DNA of 64,000 nt, taken from assembly GCF_020911945.1 (NCBI RefSeq), contig NZ_CP087135.1, positions 2,158,001 through 2,222,000 on the forward strand, in the 5' to 3' direction. The notes under the pieces were generated by a model. It was not told the DNA's origin and searched no databases. It worked only from the letters and a program-made list of their open reading frames with translations. The DNA comes from Flavobacterium galactosidilyticum. Lineage in GTDB: Bacteria; Bacteroidota; Bacteroidia; Flavobacteriales; Flavobacteriaceae. Positions 9,852 to 24,838 of this stretch are shown here, in pieces; position 1 is the first letter of the stretch; each line of letters begins with the position of its first letter. The position numbers were made by a program, and so were the translations under genes.

Positions 9852-10295
9852 TCTAAATAAATTATACGAAGCTAAAAGTATGGTGTGCAATTCGGGAATT
9901 GAATAGGTGTTTTTTAGTTAAAAGTGAGTGGTAAATCGTTTTTTAATTCCATAATCAAAGAGTAATTCTCGATGCGTTTTAAAGTTGGGGTATGGAGTAA
10001 TTGTTATGTGGCTTTTACTTCTTTTCCAGAGATGGAAGGTTTATGAGTTTAGGAGGGATTATAATAAAAATGATAGTTGGAAGAGTAGGAGGAAGGAATA
10101 GAAAGATGCTAGGAGGTGTCATTTTTTGTTTTATGCCGATGTGGGATACATATCAGTTGGGTATCCAAATAAATAGTTCTTTTGATTATTTGTAATAAAA
10201 ACTTTATATCTATATTTGTTCAAAACGGACAATCAATAGCGACAATCAACCCAATTTTGAGTGTATAGTCGCTACTTTATAGCGAGTATAAGCAA
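9852..10295. other. gene-free stretch ending in a half recombination site
   Basis: No credible coding sequence: the only open frame (10001-10195) is Gly/Met/Arg-rich and lacks family features. The last 70 bases contain a hairpin (TAGCGAC near 10235 with GTCGCTA near 10269) and end in AGCGAGTATAAGCAAGTTAT, which looks like the right half of a cassette recombination site. It marks the left edge of the cassette region. Confidence 0.5.
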
Positions 10296-10305
10296 GTTAT
10301 GGGCA
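10296..10305 (+). repeat. cassette 1 start core (inverted partner of 11371-11380)
   Basis: GTTATGGGCA here is the exact reverse complement of TGCCCATAAC at 11371-11380. In integrons the first bases of each cassette pair with the start of that cassette's own attC site, and that is the relation seen here. The two genes between lie on + as in integron cassettes. Confidence 0.7.
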
Positions 10306-10356
10306 AGTTGACCGGAACGCAATAAAATCACTATAAAAACCAAAACGTCTGAACCA

Positions 10357-11124
10357 ATGGAATATCCAGAAATTTTTGTAAAAAAAGCAAAAGAATGTAA
10401 AAAAACAGAAACCTATATTGGAACAGGTAATCCAAATGGCAAAATTTTAATTGTTGGTAAAGAAACAGCAACAGACACTGAAAACAAAGCAAATGGAAAC
10501 GAACTGTACGTAAGATTTCAAAATGAAATGCTTCAAGATTTCAAGGAGAATGCTATTAAATGGAATTTAAATATAGAAAATCTAGTTAATGTAGATTCTT
10601 TACCAAATTGGATTGGAGGAAAAAATTCTCCTTTGACTTCAAATCCATTGTTCCCTTTTAAAAGTTTACATCCTAAGGAATTGAGAGAAGGTCAAACTTG
10701 GAGTAAATATCAAAAGCTACACGATTTAATATTTTTAAACGATTTATCATTAATAAAAGAAAAACAGATTGATTTTCACAATAATTTCTTTTTGACAGAG
10801 ATGAATAGTTCACCCGCAAAATTCACAAAAGATGCTGACAAGAGCGGAATTCCAAATAGAAAACAATTTTTCAAAGAAAGTGATTTTTTTCAAAATTTTC
10901 CTGTTGTCATATTAGCTTGTAGCAATTATATCAATGGTAATGAAATCGAAGAGATTTTCAATGTGAGTTTTGATAAACAATGTGGAGTTGAAAAGCAATT
11001 ATTTTGGACACATTATAATTCTGATAAAACAAAATTGGTAATTCATACAAGACAATTAAGCACAAATGTTTCAGACAATTTGTTGATAGAAATTGCTAAT
11101 GAAGTTCGCAATTTCTTAAAATAA
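10357..11124 (+). CDS. hypothetical protein, possibly uracil-DNA-glycosylase-like
   Basis: A 255-aa soluble protein, first gene of cassette 1. The N-terminal GNPNGKILIVGKETATDTEN recalls the first conserved strand and loop of the uracil-DNA-glycosylase superfamily (hydrophobic strand, then VGxE/D-P). The C-terminal IHTRQLSTNVSDNLLIEIAN could be the matching His-containing loop and helix. These similarities are weak and no full set of catalytic residues can be assigned, so the function stays open. A 63-aa gene follows 40 bp downstream inside the same cassette. It starts about 50 bp after the cassette core site, as is usual for cassette genes. Confidence 0.7.
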   Translation: MEYPEIFVKKAKECKKTETYIGTGNPNGKILIVGKETATDTENKANGNELYVRFQNEMLQDFKENAIKWNLNIENLVNVDSLPNWIGGKNSPLTSNPLFPFKSLHPKELREGQTWSKYQKLHDLIFLNDLSLIKEKQIDFHNNFFLTEMNSSPAKFTKDADKSGIPNRKQFFKESDFFQNFPVVILACSNYINGNEIEEIFNVSFDKQCGVEKQLFWTHYNSDKTKLVIHTRQLSTNVSDNLLIEIANEVRNFLK

Positions 11125-11164
11125 AAATTAATTAAAACCGATTAAACAAATAAAACACATTATT

Positions 11165-11356
11165 ATGGCAGTTTATAAATTAAAAGCAAAGGGAAGTTAC
11201 GGGAACATGTCTAAAGGATATGAATTTCAAGTTATTTCTTCAACAATTCCGACTCCAAATGCAACTGACATCGAAAAAGAAATTGAACGATTAGGTTTTA
11301 ATTCACAAGCAAAATCATATAAAAGTGCTGGGAATTTTGAAGTAACAAAACTGTAA
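11165..11356 (+). CDS. small hypothetical protein (63 aa)
   Basis: A compact alpha/beta protein (MAVYKLKAKGSYGNMSKGYE at its start, then a helix DATDIEKEIERLGF-like and a final strand NFEVTKL). It has no membrane segment. It is the second gene of cassette 1, 40 bp after the previous gene and ending 14 bp before the cassette's closing core. Small proteins of this kind are often partners or immunity factors of the preceding gene, but that is a guess. I do not recognise the family. Confidence 0.6.
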   Translation: MAVYKLKAKGSYGNMSKGYEFQVISSTIPTPNATDIEKEIERLGFNSQAKSYKSAGNFEVTKL

Positions 11357-11370
11357 CTAAAAACACAACC

Positions 11371-11380
11371 TGCCCATAAC
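11371..11380 (+). repeat. attC-like site 1, left core (R''-like), interrupted by the IS
   Basis: TGCCCATAAC closes cassette 1 and pairs with its opening core at 10296-10305. The IS begins at the next base. The rest of the palindrome resumes at 13707 on the other side of the IS. Confidence 0.65.
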
Positions 11381-11585
11381 AGCTAGGGATTCGTTGGGTG
11401 CGAAGCACCAACAATGAAGCACGTGTTGAACGGAACCGGTCACTGGCAGGAACTATGGAATTATCGCAAAATTAATTGAGGAATATTTAGAGGATTTAGT
11501 ATCCTCTTTTTTTTTGGAGTATTTTTTCAGTTGGTTTTAATCTGTTTTACGTCACAATAGAACATAAGTTCCCTTACCCATAAAA

Positions 11586-12701
11586 TTAACTTTCACAGGA
11601 AGTAGCACTTTGGCTACCGCCAAGATACCAAGCAGGCGGACCACGCTGGTCAAAAACCGCTATTCGGTGTAAATTCCCAGTTTTACAACACGGACATTTG
11701 GGTAAAAAGGGCTTTTTTTCTACTTTTTCCAATGTTTTAACCTTGAGTTTCTCCTGCAAAAGTTTCAACTTTTGGCGCTTCCAGCTGCTACTCAAAAAGC
11801 CATAATGACGGATTTTTACAAAACGTTTGGGCAAAACATGCAATGAAAACCGCCTGATAAATTCCCCGTGAGTGAGCGTCATTTGCTTCTTTGCTCCCGC
11901 TACCCGATAATCCTTGTAATCAAAAGTGACGTTTTGATTGTCGATATTTTTTATTCGATGGTTGCTAATGGCGATTTTATGGGTGTATCTTCCTAAATAT
12001 TCTACCACAGTCTTTGGACTTCCAAAAGGCTTCTTTGCAAAAACTACCCAAGGTTTTCTCCATAATTCTTGACGTATTTGTTCGTATTTAATCGGCTCTT
12101 TTGCTTTGAGTTTTTCGCAATATTTCGCCTTAAAAACTTTTGATAAAGCTTTTACTGGAAACAAGAATTTACCATCCATTCTGCTATTTTGCCATTTCCC
12201 TTCTTTATTCACTCCTCCACCAGGAACAATACAATGCAAGTGCGGATGCAAACTCAATTGCTGTCCCCAAGTGTGCAAAACGGCTATCATTCCAGTCTGT
12301 ATATCCTTGGTTTTACCAAATTGTCCTAGCGTTTCCCAAGTCGCTTCAAACAAAATGTCATAAACCATTTTGGGCTGATGAATTGCTAAAGAATTAATAC
12401 TATCTGGCAAGGTAAAAACCACATGAAAATAAGGTACTGGCAAAAGCTCAGTGGCTCTTGCCTGAATCCAATCTTCTCGCTTGTTACCCTGACACTTTGG
12501 GCAATGCCGATTGCGGCAACTGTTGTAACTGATCCTGATTTTTCCGCAACCATCACAGGCATCAATATGGCCACCTAGTTCTGATGTTCTACAGCGTTTT
12601 AGGGCAGATAAAGTTCGGAGTTGCCAAGTGTTTAATCCTAAAGTTTCAATTCTTGTTCCAAGCTTTCTCAGCACATCGGCTACTTCAAACCTGGGCTGCA
12701 T
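11586..12701 (-). CDS. IS91-family HUH transposase
   Basis: The 371-aa transposase nicks and re-joins single strands during rolling-circle-like transposition. It has an N-terminal zinc-binding domain (DACDGCGK, then CRNRHCPKCQGNKRE), the HUH metal motif in SLHPHLHCIVPGGG, and a double tyrosine in VVEYLGRYTHKIAIS (YxxxY, the IS91 type rather than the single-Tyr ISCR type). A further cysteine cluster, PKCPCC, lies near the C-terminus. Its start overlaps the end of the recombinase gene by 22 bp, suggesting coupled translation. Copy 2 at 16196-17311 is nearly identical. Confidence 0.93.
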   Translation of the reverse strand: MQPRFEVADVLRKLGTRIETLGLNTWQLRTLSALKRCRTSELGGHIDACDGCGKIRISYNSCRNRHCPKCQGNKREDWIQARATELLPVPYFHVVFTLPDSINSLAIHQPKMVYDILFEATWETLGQFGKTKDIQTGMIAVLHTWGQQLSLHPHLHCIVPGGGVNKEGKWQNSRMDGKFLFPVKALSKVFKAKYCEKLKAKEPIKYEQIRQELWRKPWVVFAKKPFGSPKTVVEYLGRYTHKIAISNHRIKNIDNQNVTFDYKDYRVAGAKKQMTLTHGEFIRRFSLHVLPKRFVKIRHYGFLSSSWKRQKLKLLQEKLKVKTLEKVEKKPFLPKCPCCKTGNLHRIAVFDQRGPPAWYLGGSQSATSCES

Positions 12702-13459
12702 TGAGCAAAAAGAGTATCAAGCGGACTAAATTTTTGTTGGCTCTCTAATTGAGCAATCTGCAAATATTCTATGGTTGTTTCTATATTTTGATGTCCCAAA
12801 AGGTCTTTGAGCGTTATGATATCCATACCGTCTTCAAGCAAATGTGTGGCGTAGGAATGGCGTAGTGTGTGTACATGAACTTCTTTGATAATCCCAACGG
12901 CTTTGGCGACTTGTTTTACCGCCCATTGTACGCCGCGCTGGCTGTATCGATTGTCAAAATCGCCTCCAGATCGCTCTATCGGCTGACCATTAAAAAGATA
13001 CTCTTTGGGTTTTTCGGCTTCAATATATTTCTTTAATCCTCGGATTAAATGAACCGAAAGGGGTACATAACGGTCTTTCTTTCCCTTGCCCTGTACCACT
13101 TTGAGTTGTTTTCTATCAAAATCTAAATCTTGTAAACGCACCGAACGTGCTTCCATACAACGAAGTCCACAGCCGTAAAGCAAACCGATAAGGACTTTGT
13201 GCTTGAGCAATTTAGCCCCTTGGAGCATCGCCCAAACTTCAGCTTTACTGAGTACTACAGGAAGTTTTTTCTCGTGTTTTATAGAAGGTAAACGTAAGTA
13301 TTCATAAGCTAACCCCTCCGATTTTAGCAAAAATCGAAGACCGTAAACAGTGTGTTTAAAATAGGTTTGTGAAGGGGTTTTCGACTTTTTTTGTAGATAA
13401 AAAAGGTAGTCATGTATTTGCTCAGGGTCCAATTCGGTGGGAATCTTCCCAAAATACAA
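12680..13459 (-). CDS. IS-borne tyrosine recombinase
   Basis: The product is XerC/D-like. It has a SAM-like core-binding region, then the catalytic domain with Arg in GLLYGCGLRCMEARSVRL, Lys after VVQGKGKKDR, the HTLRHSYATHLLEDG box and GHQNIETTIEYLQI with the nucleophile Tyr. The coordinates use a TTG at 13459, but the frame stays open and looks coding to about 13650 (see the entry at 13460-13635), so the N-terminus is longer in reality. Several IS91-family elements are known to carry such an accessory recombinase gene. Its role in transposition is unknown; it could resolve intermediates or guide target choice. Confidence 0.88.
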   Translation of the reverse strand: MYFGKIPTELDPEQIHDYLFYLQKKSKTPSQTYFKHTVYGLRFLLKSEGLAYEYLRLPSIKHEKKLPVVLSKAEVWAMLQGAKLLKHKVLIGLLYGCGLRCMEARSVRLQDLDFDRKQLKVVQGKGKKDRYVPLSVHLIRGLKKYIEAEKPKEYLFNGQPIERSGGDFDNRYSQRGVQWAVKQVAKAVGIIKEVHVHTLRHSYATHLLEDGMDIITLKDLLGHQNIETTIEYLQIAQLESQQKFSPLDTLFAQCSPGLK

Positions 13460-13635
13460 AGCAAGAGAAGCTACATGGAGCGAATAATTTCTAAAAGTAC
13501 TTGGGCTTCGTCCTAAAACCGAAATGGTGCGCTCAAATCGATCTATTAGTTCCTCAAAACCCGGAACTTCTCGCCTGGCTTGGTTGAGAATATTGTTTTC
13601 TCTTAAGGCATCAGGATGCTTTTTTTTGTAGTCAT
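13460..13635 (-). other. in-frame N-terminal extension of the IS recombinase with an A8 slippery run
   Basis: Upstream of the TTG, the same frame encodes FERTISVLGRSPSTFRNYSL and RENNILNQARREVPGFEEL, which look like the missing first helices of the core-binding domain. This frame has no ATG, GTG or in-frame TTG before a TAG further up. An ATG at 13635 lies in another frame and meets eight A residues after two codons; a -1 slip there enters the recombinase frame. The run is identical in copy 2. Confidence 0.55.
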
Positions 13636-13706
13636 AATAATAGATTTTAGTTATCTTTGAAAAGTACTACTTTTTCGGTTTCGCGCTACCGAAGGTTTAG
13701 TTCAAC

Positions 13707-13838
13707 ACTCGTTTGGCAATAGAGCAAACTTTAGTGGTAGCATCGTGTTTACGTTTATAATTTAATTTTGTAGTTTCCGAAAAATCTCGGTTTTAATTTT
13801 TGCTCCATCGCCAAGCGAGATAACGTTGTGTGTAATGC
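13707..13838 (+). repeat. attC-like site 1, main palindrome, and cassette 2 start core
   Basis: The left arm at 13708-13728 (CTCGTTTGGCAATAGAGCAA and one more base) is complementary to the right arm in 13798-13819 (TTGCTCCATCGCCAAGCGAG) with about three mismatches, separated by an AT-rich loop of roughly 70 nt. The right arm is followed by GTTGTGTGTAATGC (13825-13838), the opening core of cassette 2. With the core at 11371-11380 this rebuilds a site of about 140 bp laid out like an integron attC: core, arm, loop, arm, core. Confidence 0.68.
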
Positions 13839-13963
13839 TAAAAAACTTTGTGGTAAATTCACTAAATCATTACATTATAATTCTTAACAATTTAGTTGAA
13901 AACTCATAAGTAATAGACTTTTTATCTTCTTATTTTTTAACTAAATTTGACAAAAATCATTTA

Positions 13964-14980
13964 ATGAATTATATAGACCACATAAACACTATACTTAAGC
14001 CACAAATAACTGAAAAAGAAGTTGTACTTGACTTATTTGCAGGTTGTGGAGGTTTATCATTAGGTTTTGAAGCTGCTGGTTACAAAACTATAGGTTTTGA
14101 AATGGAAATTGCTGCCTCTGAAACTTATAAAAAAAATCTTGTGGGAGAATGTCATGCAATAAAACTTGACCTATCATTTGAATATCCTAAAGCTGACATT
14201 ATAATAGGCGGACCACCTTGTCAACCATTTAGTGTTGGAGGAAATCAAAAAGGGATTGAAGATGCAAGAGATGGATTTCCGTTGTTTATTGACGCTGTTC
14301 AAAAATTGAAACCAAAAGTTTTCATGTTTGAAAATGTACGTGGGCTTTTATACTCTAATAAATGGTACTTTGAAATAGTTATAAAAGAACTTCAAAAGTT
14401 AGGTTACTTTATTGATTATAAACTATTAAATGCTGTTAACTTTGGCGTTCCACAAAATCGTGAAAGACTTTTTGTTATTGGACATCGAAGTAGGTTTGAT
14501 TTTCCAAAACACAACCCAAACAAAGTTACTGTCGGTGAAGCTATTGGAGATACAATGCATACAACTCCACCTGAAAGTAAATTTTTCACGGCTTCAATGG
14601 ATACTTATGTTGCAAAATATGAAAAAGCTTCTTCGTGTGTAAATCCAAGAGATTTATATCCTACTAAACCTGCAAGAACATTAACATGTAGAAATCTTGC
14701 TGGTGCAACTGGTGATATGCAACGTGTAAGACTTGAAGACGGAAGACGTAGAAGATTATTACATAACGAAGCTGCAAGGCTTCAAAGTTTTCCAGATTGG
14801 TTCGAGTTTGTCGGTAATGAAACTCAACGATTTAATCAAATTGGTAATGCAGTTCCTCCGCTTTTGGCTTATCAAATAGCATTAGCTTTAAAGGAATGTT
14901 ACCAAAGGGAAGATCAATTTTCACCAGAAGAAATTTTAGAAAAAAAAATACAAGCTAACAATATGCTTACTCTATTTTAA
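13964..14980 (+). CDS. DNA (cytosine-5-)-methyltransferase of a type II R-M system
   Basis: The 338-aa enzyme methylates C5 of cytosine to protect DNA from the neighbouring endonuclease. It shows the ordered motifs of the family: I LFAGCGGLSLGFEAAGY, IV GGPPCQPFSVGG with the catalytic Cys, VI ENVRGL, VIII GVPQNRERLF, IX NEAARLQSFPDWF and X QIGNAVPPLLA. The target-recognition region between VIII and IX is short. It starts 126 bp after the opening core of cassette 2 and is followed 2 bp later by the endonuclease gene. The recognition sequence cannot be read from the protein. Confidence 0.95.
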   Translation: MNYIDHINTILKPQITEKEVVLDLFAGCGGLSLGFEAAGYKTIGFEMEIAASETYKKNLVGECHAIKLDLSFEYPKADIIIGGPPCQPFSVGGNQKGIEDARDGFPLFIDAVQKLKPKVFMFENVRGLLYSNKWYFEIVIKELQKLGYFIDYKLLNAVNFGVPQNRERLFVIGHRSRFDFPKHNPNKVTVGEAIGDTMHTTPPESKFFTASMDTYVAKYEKASSCVNPRDLYPTKPARTLTCRNLAGATGDMQRVRLEDGRRRRLLHNEAARLQSFPDWFEFVGNETQRFNQIGNAVPPLLAYQIALALKECYQREDQFSPEEILEKKIQANNMLTLF

Positions 14981-14982
14981 AT

Positions 14983-15966
14983 ATGAAAAACTACATCACC
15001 AAAAGCAAGAAATCTAGATCGGTTAAAAAAATTATTGACGAAGCTCTTGATATTTTAGAAAGTGTTGGAATTCCTCTAAATACGAAAACTGAAAGAGGGA
15101 TGGAAAAAATGGCAGTTTGCTTTTTAGCTGTTGCAGGTGTAAAAAAAGATTGGAGTAAAGCGATAGAAAATGCTAATCTTAAATCACGTGACATTATAAA
15201 TATTGTCAATGAGAACTTTGAAGAAAACATCTCTCCAGGTTCTTATGACGACATTAGAAGAAAAGATTTAAAACTTCTTGTTTTAGCTGATATTATCATT
15301 AATAGTGGTGTAAATAAAGGTTCAGCAACAAATGATCCAACTAGAGGCTATGCTTTACATCCTGACTTCAAAAATCTAATTACAACATATAAAACAACTG
15401 ATTGGAAAAACTCCTTAAAAATTTTTAATGAAAATAAACCTAGTTTAGCAGAAATACTTTCAAGAAAAAGAAATCTTGAGCAAATTCCTGTAAAACTTCC
15501 TGACGGTAAGCCTCTTGAACTATCACTTGGAGAACATAATGTTTTACAAAAAGAGATTATTGAGCAATTTTTACCACGTTTTGGTAGCGATTGTTCCGTT
15601 CTTTATATTGGTGATACTTCTAATAAATCTTTACACATGGAAATAGAAGAATTGAAGAAACTTAATTTCTTCGAACTATCGCATGATGAACTTCCAGATA
15701 TCATTGCATATAGCAAGAAAAATAATTGGCTTTATCTTATTGAAGCTGTTCACAGTTCTGGACCAATGAGCGAAATTCGGGTTCACCAATTGAAAAAACT
15801 TTTAAAAGACTCTAAAGCGGAATTAATTTTTGTAACGGCTTTTCTTGACAGAGCTCAATTTAGAAAATGGGTAATGGATGTTGCTTGGGAAACCGAAGTT
15901 TGGATTGCTGACAATCCAGATCATATGATTCATTTTAATGGACATAAATTTTTAGGAGCATATTAA
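14983..15966 (+). CDS. BsuBI/PstI-type type II restriction endonuclease
   Basis: The 327-aa protein matches the BsuBI/PstI endonuclease family. Its C-terminal half holds HDELPDIIAYSKKNNWLYLI, then EAVHSSGP and the very typical WETEVWIADNPDHMIHFNGH before a final KFLGAY. The D...E-V/A pattern in PDII...LIEAV is the likely metal site. An N-terminal helical part (about 150 residues) would bind DNA. The known members BsuBI and PstI cut CTGCAG and are paired with N6-adenine methylases; here the partner is a C5-cytosine enzyme, which is unusual. The gene is two bases after the methylase gene in one operon and one cassette. Confidence 0.9.
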   Translation: MKNYITKSKKSRSVKKIIDEALDILESVGIPLNTKTERGMEKMAVCFLAVAGVKKDWSKAIENANLKSRDIINIVNENFEENISPGSYDDIRRKDLKLLVLADIIINSGVNKGSATNDPTRGYALHPDFKNLITTYKTTDWKNSLKIFNENKPSLAEILSRKRNLEQIPVKLPDGKPLELSLGEHNVLQKEIIEQFLPRFGSDCSVLYIGDTSNKSLHMEIEELKKLNFFELSHDELPDIIAYSKKNNWLYLIEAVHSSGPMSEIRVHQLKKLLKDSKAELIFVTAFLDRAQFRKWVMDVAWETEVWIADNPDHMIHFNGHKFLGAY

Positions 15967-15976
15967 TCAAACAGAA

Positions 15977-15990
15977 GCACTACACACAAC
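15977..15990 (+). repeat. attC-like site 2, left core, interrupted by the IS
   Basis: GCACTACACACAAC matches the reverse complement of the cassette 2 opening core (13825-13838) at 13 of 14 bases. The second IS copy begins at the next base, the same place as in site 1. Confidence 0.65.
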
Positions 15991-16195
15991 AGCTAGGGAT
16001 TCGTTGGGTGCGAAGCACCAACAATGAAGCACGTGTTGAACGGAACCGGTCACTGGCAGGAACTATGGAATTATCGCAAAATTAATTGAGGAATATTTAG
16101 AGGATTTAGTATCCTCTTTTTTTTTGGAGTAGTTTTTCAGTTGGTTTTAATCTGTTTTACGTCACAATAGAACATAAGTTCCCTTACCCATAAAA

Positions 16196-17311
16196 TTAAC
16201 TTTCACAGGAAGTAGCACTTTGGCTACCGCCAAGATACCAAGCAGGCGGACCACGCTGGTCAAAAACCGCTATTCGGTGTAAATTCCCAGTTTTACAACA
16301 CGGACATTTGGGTAAAAAGGGCTTTTTTTCTACTTTTTCCAATGTTTTAACCTTGAGTTTCTCCTGCAAAAGTTTCAACTTTTGGCGCTTCCAGCTGCTA
16401 CTCAAAAAGCCATAATGACGGATTTTTACAAAACGTTTGGGCAAAACATGCAATGAAAACCGCCTGATAAATTCCCCGTGAGTGAGCGTCATTTGCTTCT
16501 TTGCTCCCGCTACCCGATAATCCTTGTAATCAAAAGTGACGTTTTGATTGTCGATATTTTTTATTCGATGGTTGCTAATGGCGATTTTATGGGTGTATCT
16601 TCCTAAATATTCTACCACAGTCTTTGGACTTCCAAAAGGCTTCTTTGCAAAAACTACCCAAGGTTTTCTCCATAATTCTTGACGTATTTGTTCGTATTTA
16701 ATCGGCTCTTTTGCTTTGAGTTTTTCGCAATATTTCGCCTTAAAAACTTTTGATAAAGCTTTTACTGGAAACAAGAATTTACCATCCATTCTGCTATTTT
16801 GCCATTTCCCTTCTTTATTCACTCCTCCACCAGGAACAATACAATGCAAGTGCGGATGCAAACTCAATTGCTGTCCCCAAGTGTGCAAAACGGCTATCAT
16901 TCCAGTCTGTATATCCTTGGTTTTACCAAATTGTCCTAGCGTTTCCCAAGTCGCTTCAAACAAAATGTCATAAACCATTTTGGGCTGATGAATTGCTAAA
17001 GAATTAATACTATCTGGCAAGGTAAAAACCACATGAAAATAAGGTACTGGCAAAAGCTCAGTGGCTCTTGCCCGAATCCAATCTTCTCGCTTGTTACCCT
17101 GACACTTTGGGCAATGCCGATTGCGGCAACTGTTGTAACTGATCCTGATTTTTCCGCAACCATCACAGGCATCAATATGGCCACCTAGTTCTGATGTTCT
17201 ACAGCGTTTTAGGGCAGATAAAGTTCGGAGTTGCCAAGTGTTTAATCCTAAAATTTCAATTCTTGTTCCAAGCTTTCTCAGCACATCGGCTACTTCAAAC
17301 CTGGGCTGCAT
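16196..17311 (-). CDS. IS91-family HUH transposase (copy 2)
   Basis: This is a second copy of the transposase at 11586-12701, of the same 371-aa length. The zinc-binding cysteines, the HPHLH metal motif and the YLGRY tyrosines are all intact, so it should be active. Amino-acid changes relative to copy 1 are few (for example Thr/Ile near residue 19 and Gln/Arg in the DWIxARATELL segment). It overlaps the upstream recombinase gene by 22 bp. Confidence 0.93.
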   Translation of the reverse strand: MQPRFEVADVLRKLGTRIEILGLNTWQLRTLSALKRCRTSELGGHIDACDGCGKIRISYNSCRNRHCPKCQGNKREDWIRARATELLPVPYFHVVFTLPDSINSLAIHQPKMVYDILFEATWETLGQFGKTKDIQTGMIAVLHTWGQQLSLHPHLHCIVPGGGVNKEGKWQNSRMDGKFLFPVKALSKVFKAKYCEKLKAKEPIKYEQIRQELWRKPWVVFAKKPFGSPKTVVEYLGRYTHKIAISNHRIKNIDNQNVTFDYKDYRVAGAKKQMTLTHGEFIRRFSLHVLPKRFVKIRHYGFLSSSWKRQKLKLLQEKLKVKTLEKVEKKPFLPKCPCCKTGNLHRIAVFDQRGPPAWYLGGSQSATSCES

Positions 17312-18069
17312 TGAGCAAAAAGAGTATCAAGCGGACTAAATTTTTGTTGGCTCTCTAATTGAGCAATCTGCAAATATTCTATGGTTGTTTCTATATTTTG
17401 ATGTCCCAAAAGATCTTTGAGCGTCATAATATCCATACCGTCTTCAAGCAAATGTGTGGCGTAGGAATGGCGTAGTGTGTGTACATGAACTTCTTTGATA
17501 ATCCCAACGGCTTTGGCGACTTGTTTTACCGCCCATTGTACGCCGCGCTGGCTGTATCGATTGTCAAAATCGCCTCCAGATCGTTCTATCGGCTGACCAT
17601 TAAAAAGATACTCTTTGGGTTTTTCGGCTTCAATATATTTCTTCAATCCTCGTATCAAATGAACCGAAAGGGGTACATAACGGTCTTTCTTTCCCTTACC
17701 TTGTACTACTTTGAGTTGTTTTCTATCAAAATCTAAATCTTGTAAACGCACCGAACGTGCTTCCATACAACGAAGTCCACAGCCGTAAAGCAAACCAATC
17801 AGGATTTTATGTTTCAGTAGTTTGGCACCTTGAAGCATCGCCCAAACTTCAGCTTTACTGAGTACTACAGGAAGTTTTTTCTCGTGTTTTATAGAAGGTA
17901 AACGTAAGTATTCATAAGCTAACCCCTCCGATTTTAGCAAAAATCGAAGACCGTAAATAGTGTGTTTAAAATAGGTTTGTGAAGGGGTTTTCGACTTTTT
18001 TTGTAGATAAAAAAGGTAGTCATGTATTTGCTCAGGGTCCAATTCGGTGGGAATCTTCCCAAAATACAA
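17290..18069 (-). CDS. IS-borne tyrosine recombinase (copy 2)
   Basis: This is the second copy of the IS recombinase, with all catalytic motifs intact (CGLRCMEARSV, HTLRHSYATHLL, GHQNIETTIEY). Nearly all differences from copy 1 are silent third-position changes clustered between about 17640 and 17830, a pattern suggesting recombination with a diverged relative. The TTG start and the in-frame upstream extension are as in copy 1. Confidence 0.88.
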   Translation of the reverse strand: MYFGKIPTELDPEQIHDYLFYLQKKSKTPSQTYFKHTIYGLRFLLKSEGLAYEYLRLPSIKHEKKLPVVLSKAEVWAMLQGAKLLKHKILIGLLYGCGLRCMEARSVRLQDLDFDRKQLKVVQGKGKKDRYVPLSVHLIRGLKKYIEAEKPKEYLFNGQPIERSGGDFDNRYSQRGVQWAVKQVAKAVGIIKEVHVHTLRHSYATHLLEDGMDIMTLKDLLGHQNIETTIEYLQIAQLESQQKFSPLDTLFAQCSPGLK

Positions 18070-18245
18070 AGCAAGAGAAGCTACATGGAGCGAATAATTT
18101 CTAAAAGTACTTGGGCTTCGTCCTAAAACCGAAATGGTGCGCTCAAATCGATCTATTAGTTCCTCAAAACCCGGAACTTCTCGCCTGGCTTGGTTGAGAA
18201 TATTGTTTTCTCTTAAGGCATCAGGATGCTTTTTTTTGTAGTCAT
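18070..18245 (-). other. in-frame N-terminal extension and A8 run (copy 2)
   Basis: Same arrangement as 13460-13635: open recombinase frame without a normal start codon, an out-of-frame ATG at 18245 and eight A residues that would allow a -1 slip. Conservation in both copies argues against a random mutation or sequencing error. Confidence 0.5.
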
Positions 18246-18316
18246 AATAATAGATTTTAGTTATCTTTGAAAAGTACTACTTTTTCGGTTTCGCGCTACC
18301 GAAGGTTTAGTTCAAC

Positions 18317-18450
18317 AGTGGTTTTGCTCAATGGCTTGGGCTTGGTTTTTTCCTGCGGAAAAAACGCTGTCCGCCAAAATTGGGTTTGTGTTTGGAGAGT
18401 TCGGTCTTGAATCACAAGCCACTGCGCAAATCCACGGGACGTTATGCCTC
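18317..18450 (+). repeat. attC-like site 2, main palindrome, and cassette 3 start core
   Basis: The left arm at 18317-18336 (AGTGGTTTTGCTCAATGGCT) pairs with the right arm at 18417-18436 (AGCCACTGCGCAAATCCACG) at about 16 of 20 positions, around an 80-nt loop that itself contains a TTTTTTCC/GGAAAAAA hairpin. The site ends with GTTATGCCTC (18441-18450), the opening core of cassette 3. The arms differ in sequence from site 1 but the architecture is the same, as with integron attC sites, which conserve structure more than sequence. Confidence 0.68.
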
Positions 18451-18604
18451 ATTCTAAAAAGACGACAGTGCAACAAAAGAACGACAGAAATATGACGGAA
18501 AGAAAAGCCAATGCTTCCGCAAAATCAAAAGAGGTGCAACCCAACGCACAAGCCGACTCACGGTTGCACTACATTTGTTTTTTCCAAAACGTACAAATAA
18601 CAAT

Positions 18605-20749
18605 ATGAATCTTAAGGAAACTTTTGCTGAATACGAGCTAACTCCAGGACAAACAAATCTTATTGCCGAATTGGAAGAATTTCTTGCCGACAAATCAACA
18701 TGCTTTTTGCTTAAAGGTTATGCAGGAACTGGAAAAACTTTTATGATGAAAGGGCTCACAGACTTTCTTTCTACAAATAAAAGAAGTTTTAGAATTTCTG
18801 CACCGACAGGGCGAGCAGCTAAAGTAATTTCACAAAAGACAAAACACAAGGCATATACAATTCACAAATCAATTTATTCAAGCAAAGACTTGAAAGAATT
18901 TAAAGTAAAAGAAGAAGACGGAACAGAAACTTACAAATTCTATTACGACTTAAAGAACAATGTAGACCCTGCAAACACAGTTTACATAATTGATGAATCG
19001 TCAATGCTCTCAAATGTTTACTCCGAAGGAGAATTCTTTAGGTTTGGTTCAGGTTACTTATTAAAAGATTTAATTAATTATATCAATTTTGATAACAATG
19101 ACCACAATAAAAAAATAATTTTCATTGGTGACAATGCACAGTTACCTCCAGTCAATATGAATTTTTCGCCAGCATTGGACTGCAAATATTTAAAAGAAAA
19201 TTGTAACATTGAATCAAAAGAGTTTGAGCTCACAGAAGTAGTAAGACAAAAAGCGGACAGCGGAATACTTCATAACGCAACCAAAATACGTGAATCATTA
19301 AAAGCTAATCTTTTCAACCAACTTGATATTGAAATAAATTTCAAAGACATAAATAAAACGAAACACGAAGAACTTCTTTCAAAATATTTACAAGCTTGTA
19401 ACAATAGCATTGATGACGAAACTATAATTGTGGCTCATTCCAACTCATCAGTAAAAGAGTATAACGACTTTGTTAGAAACCACTTTTTTCCAAATCAACA
19501 ATTTCTTACGGTTGGAGACAAAGTGATTTTAGTTAGCAATAATTACAATCATCAAAAAATGGAATTGCTTAATGGCGATTTTGGCTTTGTAAAACAAGTA
19601 TCGCCAGTAAATGAAAGCAGAGTAATTAAATTGAAACGAAAAAATAGAGTTGGAAAATTAGTCGAAATTGATGTTCGTTTGACTTTTCGCAACGTAATGA
19701 TTGCTTTTACGGACGAAGAACAAAACAAACAAGACATCGAATGCAAGATAATTGAGAATCTACTCTATTCTCACAATCGTGATTTAAGTTCAGACGAGCT
19801 GAAAGCTATTTATATTGATTTCAAAATTCGTAACGGCTCATTAAAAGCAGGAACTAAAGAATTTAAAGATGCTTTGAGAGCAGACCCTTACTTCAATGCT
19901 TTAAGAATAAAATTTGGTTATGCAGTAACTTGTCATAAGGCACAAGGTGGAGAATGGAAAAATACTTTTCTAAATTGCAAAACGTCAATGGGTTATTTCA
20001 ATTCAAGTTATTTTCGTTGGCTTTACACAGGAATCACAAGAGCAAAAGAAAATCTATTTGCAATTGACGAACCACATTTTAAAATTGGAAGTAACCTTCA
20101 ACCACCAAGGATTGAAAATATCGCGCCCCGACAAGACATACTTGTTTTAAGTGATGAAATATTAGAAATGGAAATACCTTTTGACCTTCCAAACGAAACA
20201 CCATTTTTAAGAAACATATTTCTTGCAATAAATGATGTTCTGAAAGATGCGAACTTGAAGATTAATTCAGTCAAACATACAAGTTATTTGGAACATTACA
20301 CTTTCTCACAAGGAAACGAAAATGTAGTTTTCAAAATCCATTTCAACAATAAAAATAAAATCACAAGAATTGAAAAACCAACAAACAGAACAGAACTTGT
20401 TGAGTCAATTTATTCTGTGTTAACTCAACTTGAAAATAAAGCAATCATTTTAACAGAAGAAAAAACGACCGAATCAAAAAGCGAGAGCCTATTTGAATTT
20501 GAAAAACCATTTTTAAAAGAGTTTTATGACAGCATAAAACTGAAAATAGAACCCACCAATATTTACATCAATAGTATTGAACACAACTCTTATTGCGAAG
20601 TATATGAGTTTAAGAAAAACGGACTCATTGCAACTTACAAGTTTTGGTATGACGGTAAAAGCATCTTTAAGAAAACGGAAATTATTCCAGCAAGAACAAC
20701 AGGTTTGACGGATGAAATTAATGAACTTCTAAAACACACTAATAATTAA
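18605..20749 (+). CDS. RecD-like superfamily 1 DNA helicase with duplicated C-terminal domain
   Basis: The ATPase has Walker A GYAGTGKTFMMK, an SF1 motif Ia APTGRAAKVIS, Walker B VYIIDESSMLS, motif III FIGDNAQLPPV, and the late motifs VTCHKAQGGEW and YTGITRAKENL, close to RecD/TraA-type helicases. After about residue 515 come two related segments, each with a helix, a strand with an I-N-S-(V/I)-(K/E)-H-x-S-Y motif and a final helix, so a small domain is duplicated. I chose the ATG at 18605 (MNLKETFAEY); an upstream frame to 18575 has no family features. The next gene overlaps by one base, so the two proteins are translationally coupled and probably act as a pair, plausibly in phage defence (inference). 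Confidence 0.85.
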   Translation: MNLKETFAEYELTPGQTNLIAELEEFLADKSTCFLLKGYAGTGKTFMMKGLTDFLSTNKRSFRISAPTGRAAKVISQKTKHKAYTIHKSIYSSKDLKEFKVKEEDGTETYKFYYDLKNNVDPANTVYIIDESSMLSNVYSEGEFFRFGSGYLLKDLINYINFDNNDHNKKIIFIGDNAQLPPVNMNFSPALDCKYLKENCNIESKEFELTEVVRQKADSGILHNATKIRESLKANLFNQLDIEINFKDINKTKHEELLSKYLQACNNSIDDETIIVAHSNSSVKEYNDFVRNHFFPNQQFLTVGDKVILVSNNYNHQKMELLNGDFGFVKQVSPVNESRVIKLKRKNRVGKLVEIDVRLTFRNVMIAFTDEEQNKQDIECKIIENLLYSHNRDLSSDELKAIYIDFKIRNGSLKAGTKEFKDALRADPYFNALRIKFGYAVTCHKAQGGEWKNTFLNCKTSMGYFNSSYFRWLYTGITRAKENLFAIDEPHFKIGSNLQPPRIENIAPRQDILVLSDEILEMEIPFDLPNETPFLRNIFLAINDVLKDANLKINSVKHTSYLEHYTFSQGNENVVFKIHFNNKNKITRIEKPTNRTELVESIYSVLTQLENKAIILTEEKTTESKSESLFEFEKPFLKEFYDSIKLKIEPTNIYINSIEHNSYCEVYEFKKNGLIATYKFWYDGKSIFKKTEIIPARTTGLTDEINELLKHTNN

Positions 20750-23415
20750 TGGATTCTAAAACTGTTTTTGAACTTAGAAATGAAGCCAAAAATTTAGAAG
20801 GTATCTCAAAACTCAATAAATTAACTGAGGCATTAAATCTTGCACAAAGATTATTTTCTGTCGAACCTTATGATGAGTGGATTCAAAAGGCATTTGCTTA
20901 CACTCTAATTGATTTAAGTAAATACTATATTTTCAATAAAAACATCAATCAAGCTGGAGTTTATTATAATCAGCTACTTTTAATAAACTTTCAAGAAGTT
21001 GACGATATTATAGAAAGCCAAAAGAATTTTCTTCGTCCGAAAATTGATGTCAATTATACAGAAGTTCAAAAAGCAGAGGAACTAAGTAAAAATGGAAATC
21101 ATCGAGATGCTTTAAATATTTTCAAAAAACTGATTACTGAAAATCGTCTAACTGAGCTTCACCACGAAGCTTATGGTTGGGTAATATACAGATACATAAA
21201 AGATAAAGAAAATGAATTAACCTCAATTCAAGTTAGAACCTTTCTAAGAGATTATATAGATTTAAAGAATGAAAGACCATCAATGCTTCATTCTATGATT
21301 TTGAATTTCGCACTGCATTATTCAAAAGACCATTCTGATTTCAATCTTTATAATTTCTTTAAATTATGGAATCCTTTAAACTTAAGGAATGAAGATAAAA
21401 AGAAGCAGCATTTTAATGATAAGGAAATCCCATCATTAATTTCAAGAATATTTAGAGAATTCAACGAAAAAGATTTATCAATAGATATTGACTTTCTAAT
21501 TGAAAATACTGATTTAAATATCGGGGAGGATTTGAATACTTGGGAGTGTTTTTTAGATTGGGATGATTTGAATACTTCGGTTAAAATATACACTTCTACT
21601 CAAAAGGTATTAGATTTATTAAGAGAGCCTTATTTCTGGAGATTATTCAATGCCTACAAAGAAAATAAGAAGTCTGAACTATGGAATGTCTTCAATAAAT
21701 ACAATCAGACTTTTTCAAAATATGAAAGGTCAAAATGGCATTCTGAAATTTTGAGTATTGCCGAACGATATATGCAAGAAACCGAAGAATGGAGATTTTT
21801 AGATTTTTTCAAAATTTGGAATCCTGAAAACCTACTTGACGAAGACTGGAAAGAAGTTAAGAAAGATAACAAAGTTTATAAACCACTCGCTATTAAATGC
21901 ATAAAAAAGACTTTTGAAATTATAAAGACCCAAAACAAAGAGTTTAGTGAAAATTGGTTGATACCTATTTATTCAAAAGCCGTTCAACTTTATCCAAATG
22001 ATGAATGGCTTTTAAGGGAGAACGCTTTATTACTCATTAAAAACAATGAATTTGAATCAGCAATTAATATTTACAGAAAACTAGTTTTAGAGTTAGGCGA
22101 CAAATCGTATATCTGGAATGAGTTTTCTTCTTGTTTCAAGAACAAAAAAGACTTAAAAATCGGAATGCTTTCAAAAGCTATTCAGCTTGAAAAAAATGAA
22201 GATTTTCTTGGCGATATTCATCTAGAACTAGCTAAGACACTTTTTGATAATGGCTTAATCGAAAATTGTATTGTTGAACTTAATTCTTATAAAATACATA
22301 GAGAATTGAAGGGTTGGAGATTATCAGAATCATTTATTGAAATTTCGAACAAAACAAAAAATCAGAACACTAACCTAAAAGACAACAAAAGTCTCTATGA
22401 CAAATATATTCCTATTGCTGAGCTATATGCTTACGAAGAAATTGACTGGACAGAAGTAATATTGGTAGATAAATGGAAAAATGAAGGCAAAGAAAGAATT
22501 GCTTTTACAAATGGAAAAACAATTGATTTTTCAATTGGTAGCAGACGATTTGGTTTATTAAAACAATCATCAATAGGTAAAGTCTATAAATTTAAGTTGC
22601 ACAAGCAAGAAATCAAAAAAGAGGTTGAAGCCAAATTTGCTTGGATGGGAAAAACAACTATCACAGATTATAAATACATTCCATTAATTGTTGATAAATC
22701 AGAAAAACCAGACTGGTCAATTCTTGATGATATTTATGCTACAATTGATTACATCAATACTGAAAAAAATATAATTCACGCTATTACCACGGATAACAAA
22801 GAAGTATTTTTCCCAAAAGGCAAAATTCAATTACAGATTGGCGACTTTATTAAAGCTAAATATTACAGCAAGAAAGTAAAGGATGAAATCAGAATTGAAT
22901 TAAAAGACATTGCCAAGATTGACAAAGAAAATGCAGTTGTTCATTTTTCAAAAATAATTGCAGTTATTGATGGAGTAAACAAAGAAAAGAATCTTTTTCA
23001 TTACGTTGGAAGCGCAACTGTTCAAGGTATTATTCGATTCACAGAAACCGATATAATTCCAGAAGAAGGGAAGTTTTTAGAAATATTTTACACTTCAAAA
23101 AAGCATAGAACCGAAAATAGAACAATTATTAAACCAATTCAGATTAATGAAACCGAAGAAATAAATCCTAAATTAATAAAGTCTATAAATGGTATTTTGG
23201 TATTGAAATATAAAACTAGTGGAGGTACTGTTGATTTTTATGACTTGGATGAGGATGATATGAGCTACACATCACCTGACTTTGGTTTTGTTGGAGATTT
23301 TTATGTTCCAAAAAATGTTTTATGTGAAAATAAAATAACGACGAATTGCAATATTACAGCAACAGCAATTTTTTCGGGAGACAAATGGAAAATCATAAAA
23401 TTAGAAAAAGTATAA
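20749..23415 (+). CDS. large helical-repeat protein with C-terminal beta/OB-like repeats, helicase partner
   Basis: An 888-aa soluble protein. Roughly residues 1-540 are helical with TPR-like pairs (for example EELSKNGNHRDALNIFKKLI and NEFESAINIYRKLVLELGD), a scaffold type. From about residue 560 the protein turns beta-rich with three or four related units, such as ATIDYINTEKNIIHAITT followed by GDFIKAKYY, and AVIDGVNKEKNLFHYVG followed by GKFLEIFYT, which look like small OB-fold or cold-shock-like modules that could bind nucleic acid. The start codon overlaps the helicase stop (TAATG). The whole gene pair forms cassette 3. No enzyme motif is visible. I do not recognise a named family with certainty. 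Confidence 0.8.
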   Translation: MDSKTVFELRNEAKNLEGISKLNKLTEALNLAQRLFSVEPYDEWIQKAFAYTLIDLSKYYIFNKNINQAGVYYNQLLLINFQEVDDIIESQKNFLRPKIDVNYTEVQKAEELSKNGNHRDALNIFKKLITENRLTELHHEAYGWVIYRYIKDKENELTSIQVRTFLRDYIDLKNERPSMLHSMILNFALHYSKDHSDFNLYNFFKLWNPLNLRNEDKKKQHFNDKEIPSLISRIFREFNEKDLSIDIDFLIENTDLNIGEDLNTWECFLDWDDLNTSVKIYTSTQKVLDLLREPYFWRLFNAYKENKKSELWNVFNKYNQTFSKYERSKWHSEILSIAERYMQETEEWRFLDFFKIWNPENLLDEDWKEVKKDNKVYKPLAIKCIKKTFEIIKTQNKEFSENWLIPIYSKAVQLYPNDEWLLRENALLLIKNNEFESAINIYRKLVLELGDKSYIWNEFSSCFKNKKDLKIGMLSKAIQLEKNEDFLGDIHLELAKTLFDNGLIENCIVELNSYKIHRELKGWRLSESFIEISNKTKNQNTNLKDNKSLYDKYIPIAELYAYEEIDWTEVILVDKWKNEGKERIAFTNGKTIDFSIGSRRFGLLKQSSIGKVYKFKLHKQEIKKEVEAKFAWMGKTTITDYKYIPLIVDKSEKPDWSILDDIYATIDYINTEKNIIHAITTDNKEVFFPKGKIQLQIGDFIKAKYYSKKVKDEIRIELKDIAKIDKENAVVHFSKIIAVIDGVNKEKNLFHYVGSATVQGIIRFTETDIIPEEGKFLEIFYTSKKHRTENRTIIKPIQINETEEINPKLIKSINGILVLKYKTSGGTVDFYDLDEDDMSYTSPDFGFVGDFYVPKNVLCENKITTNCNITATAIFSGDKWKIIKLEKV

Positions 23416-23506
23416 GCCACCGCATTTGGTAGCACATTTGCAGTTTTTTCCAAACGCAAAACGACACGAAAATGAACAAGTAAACAACGACTGAAGAAAT
23501 AAGAAC

Positions 23507-23535
23507 GAGGCATAACTGCCGTTTGGCAATATGTC
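23507..23535 (+). repeat. attC-like site 3, left half only
   Basis: GAGGCATAAC (23507-23516) is the exact reverse complement of the cassette 3 opening core at 18441-18450. It is followed by TGCCGTTTGGCAATATG, which shares CGTTTGGCAATA with the left arm of site 1. No matching right arm is found before the integrase gene, so the site seems cut off by the arrival of the next element. Confidence 0.62.
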
Positions 23536-23590
23536 GGGTTTTAGGCTTAATTTGAAGTTGGTTTTGTATTTGTGAGAATTTAAAAAAGTG

Positions 23591-24838
23591 TTAATTGGTA
23601 TTTTTGATAATTTTATCATTGTTGCTGTTTGACATTTTGTTTCTTAAAACCATCATATCCTCACTCACTTTTTTATCCAATATTTTAGCATAGTGTTGTG
23701 TGGTTCTTATGTTTTTATGGCCCAACATTTTACTCACACTTTCTATTGGAACACCATTTGTGAGCGTTACAGTTGTCGCAAAAGTGTGTCGGGCAATGTG
23801 GAAGGTTAAATCTTTTTTAATGCCACAAACATCCGCTATTTCCTTTAAATAGCTATTCATTTTCTGATTGCTTAAAATGGGTAGCAGTTTATCTTCATTT
23901 ATGCATTGTGGATGATTGGCATATTTCAGAATTAATTCTTCCGGTATAGGGAGGAGGGGAATACGAGAAGCGGTTTCTGTTTTTTGACGATGGGTGAATA
24001 TCCATTTTCCACCATCAATACCCATACTGATGTTTGATACCGTTAAGTTTTTGACATCGATGTAAGCCAGACCGGTAAAGCAGCTGAAAACGAAAATATC
24101 TTTGACTAGGTTTAGTCTTTCAGTTATGAATACTTTGGAATAGATATCCTGAACTTCTTCTTGCGTTAGATAATCTCTTTCGACTTCCCTAATTTTTGAT
24201 TTATAGTTTGCAAATGGATCTTTATCTAGCCATCCATTTGAAATACAGATTTTGATTATCTTTTTGAAGTTCTTAATGTATTTGACTGCTGTGTTGTTAG
24301 CGCATTTGCGGACACTTCTTAGATAGAATTCATATTCTGTTATGAAAGGATGGTCTATTTTATTGATTTCAATATCGGATATGTTGTATTTCCACTCCAA
24401 AAAGTCTTTGGTGTGCTTGAGTGAGGTTTTGTATCGCTCTAGTGTTCCAGGTGCGTATTCGAGCCCTATTAACTCTTCTACTTTCCGGTTGTGCTCTTCG
24501 AAAATAGGGATGAGCATACGTTCACGCTCATTGATGCCGAGAAGTCTATTTTTGAAAACTTCAATTGTGAGGGGTTCATTGCGGTGAATTAATTCCATTT
24601 GGATATCGAATATTTTTGATTTCAGTAAATCAAGGTATTCATTTAATGAACGAGCATTCTCTGTGTTGCCTTTCATTTTTGACATCTCAGGAGACCATTT
24701 AGCGGAATCTATGAATTTTTTGGTACTGAACTCTATTCGATTTCCATCTACAGTTAATCTTACATAGATAGGAAGTAGACCAGCAGCATTAGCTTTTGTG
24801 CTTTTGGCATAAAAGTGCAATGTGATTTTAGTTTTCAT
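23591..24838 (-). CDS. tyrosine integrase of a Bacteroidota mobile element
   Basis: The 415-aa integrase has the common Bacteroidota layout: an N-terminal arm-binding domain (TLHFYAKSTKANAAGLLPIY-like start), a core-binding domain and a catalytic domain. Visible catalytic boxes are FSCFTGLAYIDVKNL (the usual Arg of box I appears replaced: TGLAYID instead of TGLRxxE, as is common in this group), HIARHTFATTVTLTNG and GHKNIRTTQHYAKI with the Tyr. It faces left, away from the 15-bp repeat at 25111, as expected for an element whose attachment site was at its right end. It probably belongs to a different island from the integrase at 25318. It is unlikely to be an IntI: no IntI-specific insert is seen. 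Confidence 0.9.
   Translation of the reverse strand: MKTKITLHFYAKSTKANAAGLLPIYVRLTVDGNRIEFSTKKFIDSAKWSPEMSKMKGNTENARSLNEYLDLLKSKIFDIQMELIHRNEPLTIEVFKNRLLGINERERMLIPIFEEHNRKVEELIGLEYAPGTLERYKTSLKHTKDFLEWKYNISDIEINKIDHPFITEYEFYLRSVRKCANNTAVKYIKNFKKIIKICISNGWLDKDPFANYKSKIREVERDYLTQEEVQDIYSKVFITERLNLVKDIFVFSCFTGLAYIDVKNLTVSNISMGIDGGKWIFTHRQKTETASRIPLLPIPEELILKYANHPQCINEDKLLPILSNQKMNSYLKEIADVCGIKKDLTFHIARHTFATTVTLTNGVPIESVSKMLGHKNIRTTQHYAKILDKKVSEDMMVLRNKMSNSNNDKIIKNTN

Follow-up and report, generated by a model that had tools for sequence, protein, structure and literature searches.

What assembles and moves a row of gene blocks that resemble integron cassettes when no integron integrase gene accompanies them? 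This question is raised by a stretch of 64,000 nucleotides from Flavobacterium galactosidilyticum (contig NZ_CP087135.1, positions 2,158,001 to 2,222,000; hereafter the window), which holds three neighbouring cassettes bounded by GTT cores. Our analyses indicate that the window very probably contains a decayed member of an unrecognised and widespread class of Bacteroidota integrons, whose integrase would be a non-IntI tyrosine recombinase that we call BInt. The architecture of these platforms, their cassette boundaries, the covariation within their sites, their distribution and the scar of the lost integrase gene are read from the sequences themselves.

The window array and the trace of its integrase

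A sequence-only reading of this locus had described three gene blocks, each closed by the reverse complement of its own opening core, and had proposed either a divergent Bacteroidota type of integron or a cluster of attC sites lacking an integrase (CALIN). All three self-paired cores were recovered: each cassette carries its own core, inverted, at both ends over 10-14 nt. A search for exact 10-nt GTTRTG self-pairs, with the partner 200-6000 nt further on, found no others in the window, and in 50 order-2 Markov sequences such pairs averaged 0.12 per sequence and never exceeded 1. The features of the array and of its upstream border are as follows (IS, insertion sequence; ORF, open reading frame; aa, amino acids; R1, a covariance model of the sites, described below).

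9994..10150, plus strand: flank homologous to the sequence that precedes the integrase gene in the intact platform (blastn to 10710-10561 of locus L022)
10166..10195, plus strand: integrase gene remnant, the last nine codons and stop (QINSSFDYL, stop; blastn and reading frame)
10196..10298, plus strand: attI-like site, inverted repeat CGCTACTTTATAGCG then GTATAAGCAA, then GTT (similar to sequence downstream of the integrase stop in L022 and relatives)
10296..13824, plus strand: cassette 1, two ORFs, split by IS copy 1
10296 and 11371..11380, plus strand: self-paired cores of cassette 1, opening GTTATGGGCA and closing (R'') TGCCCATAAC
10357-11124, plus strand: ORF of a 255-aa protein in cassette 1, no Pfam or NCBIfam match
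11165-11356, plus strand: 63-aa ORF in cassette 1
11381..13706, minus strand: IS91-family element, copy 1 (ends mapped by comparison of the copies)
11586-12701, minus strand: IS91 transposase ORF of copy 1 (NF033538, E 6.4e-131, cut-off passed)
12680-13666, minus strand: 328-aa tyrosine recombinase of copy 1 (PF00589, PF13495)
13707..13834, plus strand: remainder of attC-like site 1, from the left arm across the loop to the right arm, with the core that opens cassette 2 (R1)
13825..18440, plus strand: cassette 2, two genes, split by IS copy 2
13825 and 15977..15990, plus strand: cores of cassette 2, opening GTTGTGTGTAATGC and closing (R'') GCACTACACACAAC, 13/14 paired
13964-14980, plus strand: C5 cytosine methylase of cassette 2 (PF00145, 1.9e-66)
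14983-15966, plus strand: BsuBI/PstI-type restriction endonuclease of cassette 2 (PF06616, 3.9e-64)
15991..18316, minus strand: IS91-family element, copy 2 (recombinase 99% identical to that of copy 1)
18317..18450, plus strand: remainder of attC-like site 2, with the core that opens cassette 3 (R1)
18441..23572, plus strand: cassette 3, a TOTE-type conflict pair of two genes
18441 and 23507, plus strand: self-paired cores of cassette 3, opening GTTATGCCTC and closing GAGGCATAAC
18575-20749, plus strand: helicase ORF of cassette 3 (PF22721, PF13604)
20749-23415, plus strand: TPR/S1-domain protein of cassette 3 (PF22860, PF22708)
23507..23572, plus strand: left half of attC-like site 3 (partial R1 match at 23538-23572, E 0.63)

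The two IS elements, near-identical and 2,326 bp long, interrupt their sites at the precise junction of closing core (..AAC) and left arm. This insertion is why core and palindrome had looked separate, and the palindromes outside the elements are therefore the remaining parts of attC-like sites. Palindromes between the blocks at 13707-13834 and 18317-18450, noted previously as imperfect, proved real and members of a recurrent family: R1, in which the window sites were not included, matches 13697-13834 (82.6 bits, E 1.3e-18) and 18307-18450 (45.4 bits, E 2.8e-9), the first 10 bases of both matches being the end of the IS. Two full sites thus stand where palindromes had been reported, while the third, at 23507-23572, is a left half and no more. 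Its right half is absent where the site borders on a tyrosine recombinase gene (23591-24838, minus strand), and a pattern search of the fetched loci did not find it. That gene and a second tyrosine recombinase gene (25318-26550, plus strand) lie beside the truncated site and are perhaps the end of an integrated element. An Rfam search of the window at gathering thresholds returned tRNA and nothing else.

Upstream of cassette 1, comparison with the intact platform of the same genome (locus L022, C1:242 kb) identifies what has been lost. The flank at 9994-10150 aligns with L022 at 71% over 157 columns (E 1e-16), and the segment 10166-10298 aligns with L022 9455-9321 at 69.5% (E 1.4e-8), a match that starts nine codons short of the BInt stop, covers attI and extends to the first core. 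The intact integrase ends in QIKSPFDDL and a stop, and SPFDDL is invariant among the 18 BInt sequences of our alignment A3. Since these two homologous segments flank a missing 1.1 kb, the window array has evidently lost its integrase gene by deletion, and the end of the gene and attI remain. The window gave no BInt match and no IntI over the cut-off (TIGR02249 over 265 bits). The absence of an integrase proposed by the sequence-only reading is therefore correct, whereas a mere cluster is not what the locus holds: it resembles a CALIN in having attC-like sites (two full, one half) with no nearby integrase, and differs in retaining attI and a piece of the integrase gene, through which its origin by loss is visible.

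An intact platform, its sites and its cassettes

The host genome, a single contig (C1) of 3.53 Mb, carries an array of the same kind as that of the window on the minus strand at C1:195-243 kb. Two BInt genes were located.

C1:242425-243468, minus strand: BInt, a 347-aa tyrosine recombinase at the head of the intact array
C1:3275999-3277039: BInt of a third platform, 75% identical to that of the intact platform, with an in-frame stop near its end

Downstream of the intact BInt stop the sequence runs through GCGCTACTTTGTAGCGCATATATACAA into GTTGGCGGAC, with which the first cassette begins. As in a classical integron, the apparent attI lies beside the integrase and the first cassette lies there.

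A hand-made palindrome scanner used alone was rejected because real and shuffled counts were alike in most stretches of this AT-rich DNA. Long, regular, G+C-rich arms were conspicuous by eye at locus L010, and a covariance model then superseded the scanner. This model, R1, is based on alignments (A1/A2) of 21 sites of the large array, from which repeats, the two IS-split sites, a 197-nt candidate, low-G+C scanner hits and sites missed by the scanner were omitted. On these 21 sites RNAalifold predicts a single stem of 18 pairs, 17 of which show compensatory changes with both sides altered; a palindromic site of conserved structure and variable sequence is what characterizes classical integrons. 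In classical integrons the bottom strand of attC is the better-folding substrate; here it folds more stably than the top strand in 19/21 sites under DNA parameters and is favoured in 13/21 under RNA parameters. Scanning the host genome with R1 (150 scored out of 3812 first-look candidates) yielded at least 44 sites at E <=1e-3: 35 in the large array, where they measure about 139 nt, 2 in the window, 1 beside the third platform and 6 isolated. A co-oriented site within 2 kb on the 3' side (at 1.3-1.4 kb) accompanies just two of the 17 tyrosine recombinase genes of the host, the two BInt genes.

Cassette boundaries were examined in the large array, and they coincide with the GTT cores; the sequence-only reading had named boundaries that ignore such cores, in homologues of the window genes in relatives, as evidence against it. 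Core pairing could be scored at 33 of the 35 array sites and, after one 6.6-kb cassette was dropped, 32 cassettes remained, one row being under-scored because a later AAC was taken. The closing core matches the opening of its own cassette at a mean of 9.91 of 12 positions, compared with 6.00 for the opening of the next cassette; the own opening fits better in 29/32 cassettes and worse in 2, and the highest mean among 2000 reshufflings of the openings was 7.38. The majority opening is GTTRKSNGYMAK. G-T-T is present in 36/36 openings (a count that takes in repeats and the window's three), and the classical GTTRRRY fits one of them, in agreement with the earlier remark that the core deviates from it.

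Repeated cassettes point to exchange of these units. Eleven cassette pairs of five kinds, one pair being in tandem, are 99.7-100% identical and have different neighbours, and their homology stops at GTT on both sides save for 0-19 extra matching bases, the longer extra matches being shared site or core letters. One cassette kind is present at attI and again as the 23rd cassette of the large array, which suggests that attI and attC junctions exchange the same units.

A self-paired opening is clear upstream of two of the isolated sites, at 1.0 and 0.9 kb (10/12, against 7 and 8 for the runners-up), and weaker upstream of a third, at 2.7 kb (9, against 8); for the other three of the six no opening stands out. 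No core follows the first three sites, and single cassettes therefore seem to have landed elsewhere. Such single cassettes with self-paired ends outside arrays lie at C1:1151807 (L150), 2116030 (L151) and 969348 (L154), and the left border of the one at L151 reads ATATATACAA and then GTT, which is attI-like.

The 30 cassette proteins that were scanned match 48 Pfam families, with one protein per family among the 25 families listed, including Cass2, GNAT, GmrSD, Mrr, BsuBI/PstI and TOTE domains. Among the 25 of 149 Padloc matches listed are models for DndD, PbeC, methyltransferases/restriction endonucleases (MTase/REase), DruM and PDC-M16. Because the scanned cassettes carry restriction-modification, TOTE, DndD-like and GmrSD genes, the system may shuffle phage defences.

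BInt and the associated sites across the Bacteroidota

A structure model (pTM, the predicted template modelling score, 0.55) and a fold search identify BInt as a tyrosine recombinase; the nearest structures are XerA-type and IntI4, which supports a tyrosine recombinase and nothing narrower. R204, H294, R297, H320 and Y329, which we take to be the catalytic residues, are invariant in A3. BInt scores below the IntI cut-off, and positions 181-238 of the IntI model are skipped. In our alignment, 14/14 canonical IntI of the phylum and 0/19 BInt carry the IntI block (around LPxALxRKYPNA..W), and full-length BInt members have an extra N-terminal domain of about 60 aa relative to IntI. The two also form separate clades (support 98/96 for BInt and 99/99 for IntI) in a tree in which the IS recombinase and the Xer rows have long branches. 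The host genome has no IntI over the cut-off, the integrase by which classical integrons are recognised. Thus, since BInt lacks the IntI block and its platform is integron-like in anatomy, BInt falls outside IntI and the platform resembles an integron.

We then surveyed 395 Bacteroidota genomes, with up to 8 candidate sites and 5 candidate proteins scored in each. R1 sites were found in 182 (E 1e-4), so that the palindrome family does recur in other genomes, a point on which the sequence-only reading had staked its interpretation; its suggestion of a divergent Bacteroidota type holds in that the sites form a recurrent family of this phylum. BInt homologues were found in 113/395 genomes (E 1e-50), and canonical IntI in 106/395 at E 1e-70 and in 105/395 over the curated cut-off, all but one of the latter outside the taxonomic class of the host. 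The IntI count exceeds what the available parts of published surveys suggest. Sites and BInt occur together in 100 genomes, sites only in 82, BInt only in 13 and neither in 200 (odds ratio 18.8; Fisher p 1.5e-28, a value that ignores kinship). For sites and IntI the corresponding counts are 38, 144, 68 and 145 (odds ratio 0.56).

These counts bear directly on the possibility that the palindromes are ordinary attC sites on which a canonical IntI works in trans, or worked before it was lost. IntI is indeed present in 105/395 sampled genomes of the phylum, and attC recognition is structure-based. In contrast, the host has none over the cut-off, and the 73 listed site-bearing genomes of its taxonomic class include 49 with BInt and 0 with IntI. 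Moreover, sites of the R1 family lie at only one (L137) of 20 IntI loci examined as a control (from 106 genomes with IntI), and the genome concerned also has BInt. We therefore regard this explanation as very improbable.

Further support for BInt comes from the arrangement of its loci. We examined 22 BInt loci, namely 20 fetched regions chosen as best-scoring matches and two platforms of the host. Sites are present at 21/22, 3' of BInt and with cassettes running in the same direction, and the sole other-strand matches are weak antisense ones on the same palindromes. By eye, an attI-like sequence follows the BInt stop in 21/22 loci, in the form of a variable inverted repeat and then approximately TATA..AGTTR. 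Among the best 80 named BInt loci of a longer listing, 174/178 site matches are co-oriented with BInt, and 4 of these 174 lie 5' of it; the remaining 4 are weak and hit the same palindromes in antisense. Sites occur in 42/49 of the named loci with at least 1.2 kb of sequence 3' of BInt and in 31/35 of those with at least 3 kb; the other 31/80 were too short to judge, and 6 of these 31 still have a site. A strict attI pattern is found in 54/77 named loci (3/80 were unreadable to the stop). Titles of the BInt records name Flavobacterium, Kaistella, Pedobacter, Algoriphagus, Cyclobacterium, Galbibacter and many Bacteroidota metagenome-assembled genomes (MAGs). Platforms also occur on two Chryseobacterium plasmids, one with four full sites and a partial one and the other with attI and an IS and no R1 match.

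A second alternative assigns cassette movement to the tyrosine recombinase of the IS91-family element, or to XerC/D. By their transposase, the IS copies of the window are clear members of the IS91 family; they differ from it in a second gene, the tyrosine recombinase, and in their siting, a comparable case being the IS1111-attC elements that sit in attC sites. The IS recombinase is 33% identical to BInt, and 4/5 of the copies mapped in the fetched genome parts lie in attC-like sites, the fifth lying elsewhere, also after TAAC. By eye, a relative on a Chryseobacterium oryzae plasmid (L149, about 10736-13156) likewise has an attC-like left arm at its right end, with AAT in place of AAC at its left end. 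However, the four in-array copies are oriented against the cassettes and lie inside arrays rather than at their heads, 0/5 copies have a co-oriented site within 50 kb on the 3' side, the gene preceding the attI-like sequence is BInt in 22 loci, and the IS has an IS91 transposase of its own. This alternative is accordingly more improbable again. Least credible of all is that the palindromes are terminator-like or repetitive extragenic palindromic (REP)-like repeats between independently acquired genes: they are strong hairpins 3' of genes, but neither own-core pairing, GTT boundaries of repeated cassettes and a copy at attI nor the one-sided orientation of the 174/178 matches is expected of terminators.

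Several observations weigh against an integron class driven by BInt. At the thresholds of the survey, 82/182 site-bearing genomes have no BInt and 13/113 BInt genomes have no site, and the related genomes entering the Fisher p-values are not independent. Of the 22 BInt loci examined, one (L038) has no sites and another (L036) has the attI-like repeat and no GTT, and 7/49 named loci long enough to include a site lack one. An R1 scan of the C. oryzae plasmid locus found no site. In two distant BInt relatives (G038 C33 and G331 C1) the site listed is on the 5' side of BInt and faces away from it. With RNA parameters the bottom strand is favoured in 13/21 sites. Finally, BInt lacks a domain reported, in the available parts of two studies, as necessary for integron function (PMC9668308, PMC8138268).

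As a separate observation, the placement of the sites in G038 and G331, on the other side of the gene and in the opposite direction, resembles that of classical integrons.

Proposed mechanism and related systems

The intact form of the platform would comprise BInt (about 347 aa), a co-directional attI-like site about 100 bp past its stop codon, and cassettes of one or a few genes, each closed by a palindromic attC-like site of about 139 nt. Most likely, BInt acts on cassette attC sites whose bottom strand it folds into a hairpin, with strand exchange at GTT; circular cassettes would enter at attI and be excised at attC. If strands are exchanged at the GTT of a folded attC, the first 9-10 or so bases of a cassette must be complementary to its own closing core, the relation that the sequence-only reading had picked out. 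That BInt is the recombinase, that it works on a folded bottom strand and that it moves cassettes in trans is the most likely interpretation of these comparisons. In the window, a deletion removed BInt and left its last nine codons and attI, IS91-family elements entered two attC sites, and the last attC lost its right half, with no order implied. More broadly, we consider it probable that BInt performs attC x attI recombination on folded single strands across the phylum, on chromosomes and plasmids, that it also drops single cassettes elsewhere, that it accounts for gene uptake in Riemerella (below), and that it captures cassettes without the IntI domain.

The closest familiar counterpart is the chromosomal superintegron of Vibrio, which is served by IntI. 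Both have an integrase, an attI-like site, a one-direction array of short cassettes with palindromic sites of about 120-140 nt, repeated cassettes, and cassette genes of the same types (Cass2, GNAT, restriction-modification and unknowns). The Bacteroidota platforms differ in that BInt lacks the IntI-specific block and has an extra N-terminal domain, in the core (GTTRKSNGYMAK rather than GTTRRRY), and in that BInt and the cassettes run in the same direction, with attI 3' of the integrase gene.

The accessible portions of the literature list Bacteroidota among integron-bearing phyla (PMC8618304, PMC9668308) and report intI in the Bacteroidetes/Chlorobi group (PMC2426708). IntegronFinder 2.0, as far as its available text goes, records that only In0 had been seen earlier in Bacteroidetes and adds one complete integron, in Salinibacter ruber, besides those of Chlorobi and Ignavibacteriae (PMC9024848). 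The additional domain of IntI is treated there as defining in one study (PMC9668308); in another, the insertion is described as incompletely conserved in an integron-like subgroup of simple tyrosine recombinases and yet essential for integron function (PMC8138268). BInt may belong to this subgroup, whose members without the insertion are not linked to cassette arrays in the portion available.

The nearest account found by title or opening of the abstract in the open-licence literature, where none of this system itself was found, concerns Riemerella anatipestifer (PMC13148043, 2026). In the accessible part of that report, homology plays no part in the chromosomal entry of a resistance gene that has 27 bp ahead of it and 140 bp behind it, the 140-bp tail folds like an attC, a site-specific mechanism is considered likely, and two other genes behave similarly. 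The tail is about as long as the sites of the R1 family, and BInt and the attC-like sites may explain this homology-free uptake.

Few integrons appear in the available text of Bacteroidetes surveys, compared with one site family in 182/395 genomes and one platform of 35 sites here. Tools keyed to IntI and GTTRRRY could miss these sites. If our interpretation is true, the Bacteroidota would have an integron class of their own, and cassette capture would have evolved, or would work, without a domain held to be essential; if BInt works without the IntI domain, the role of that domain becomes directly testable.

Relatives of BInt with about 46-54% identity are frequent on plasmids of Acinetobacter, Klebsiella and others, under the names tyrosine-type recombinase or TnpF. 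A BInt gene with an attI-like site is also present in a MAG labelled Azoarcus (L098), by transfer or contamination.

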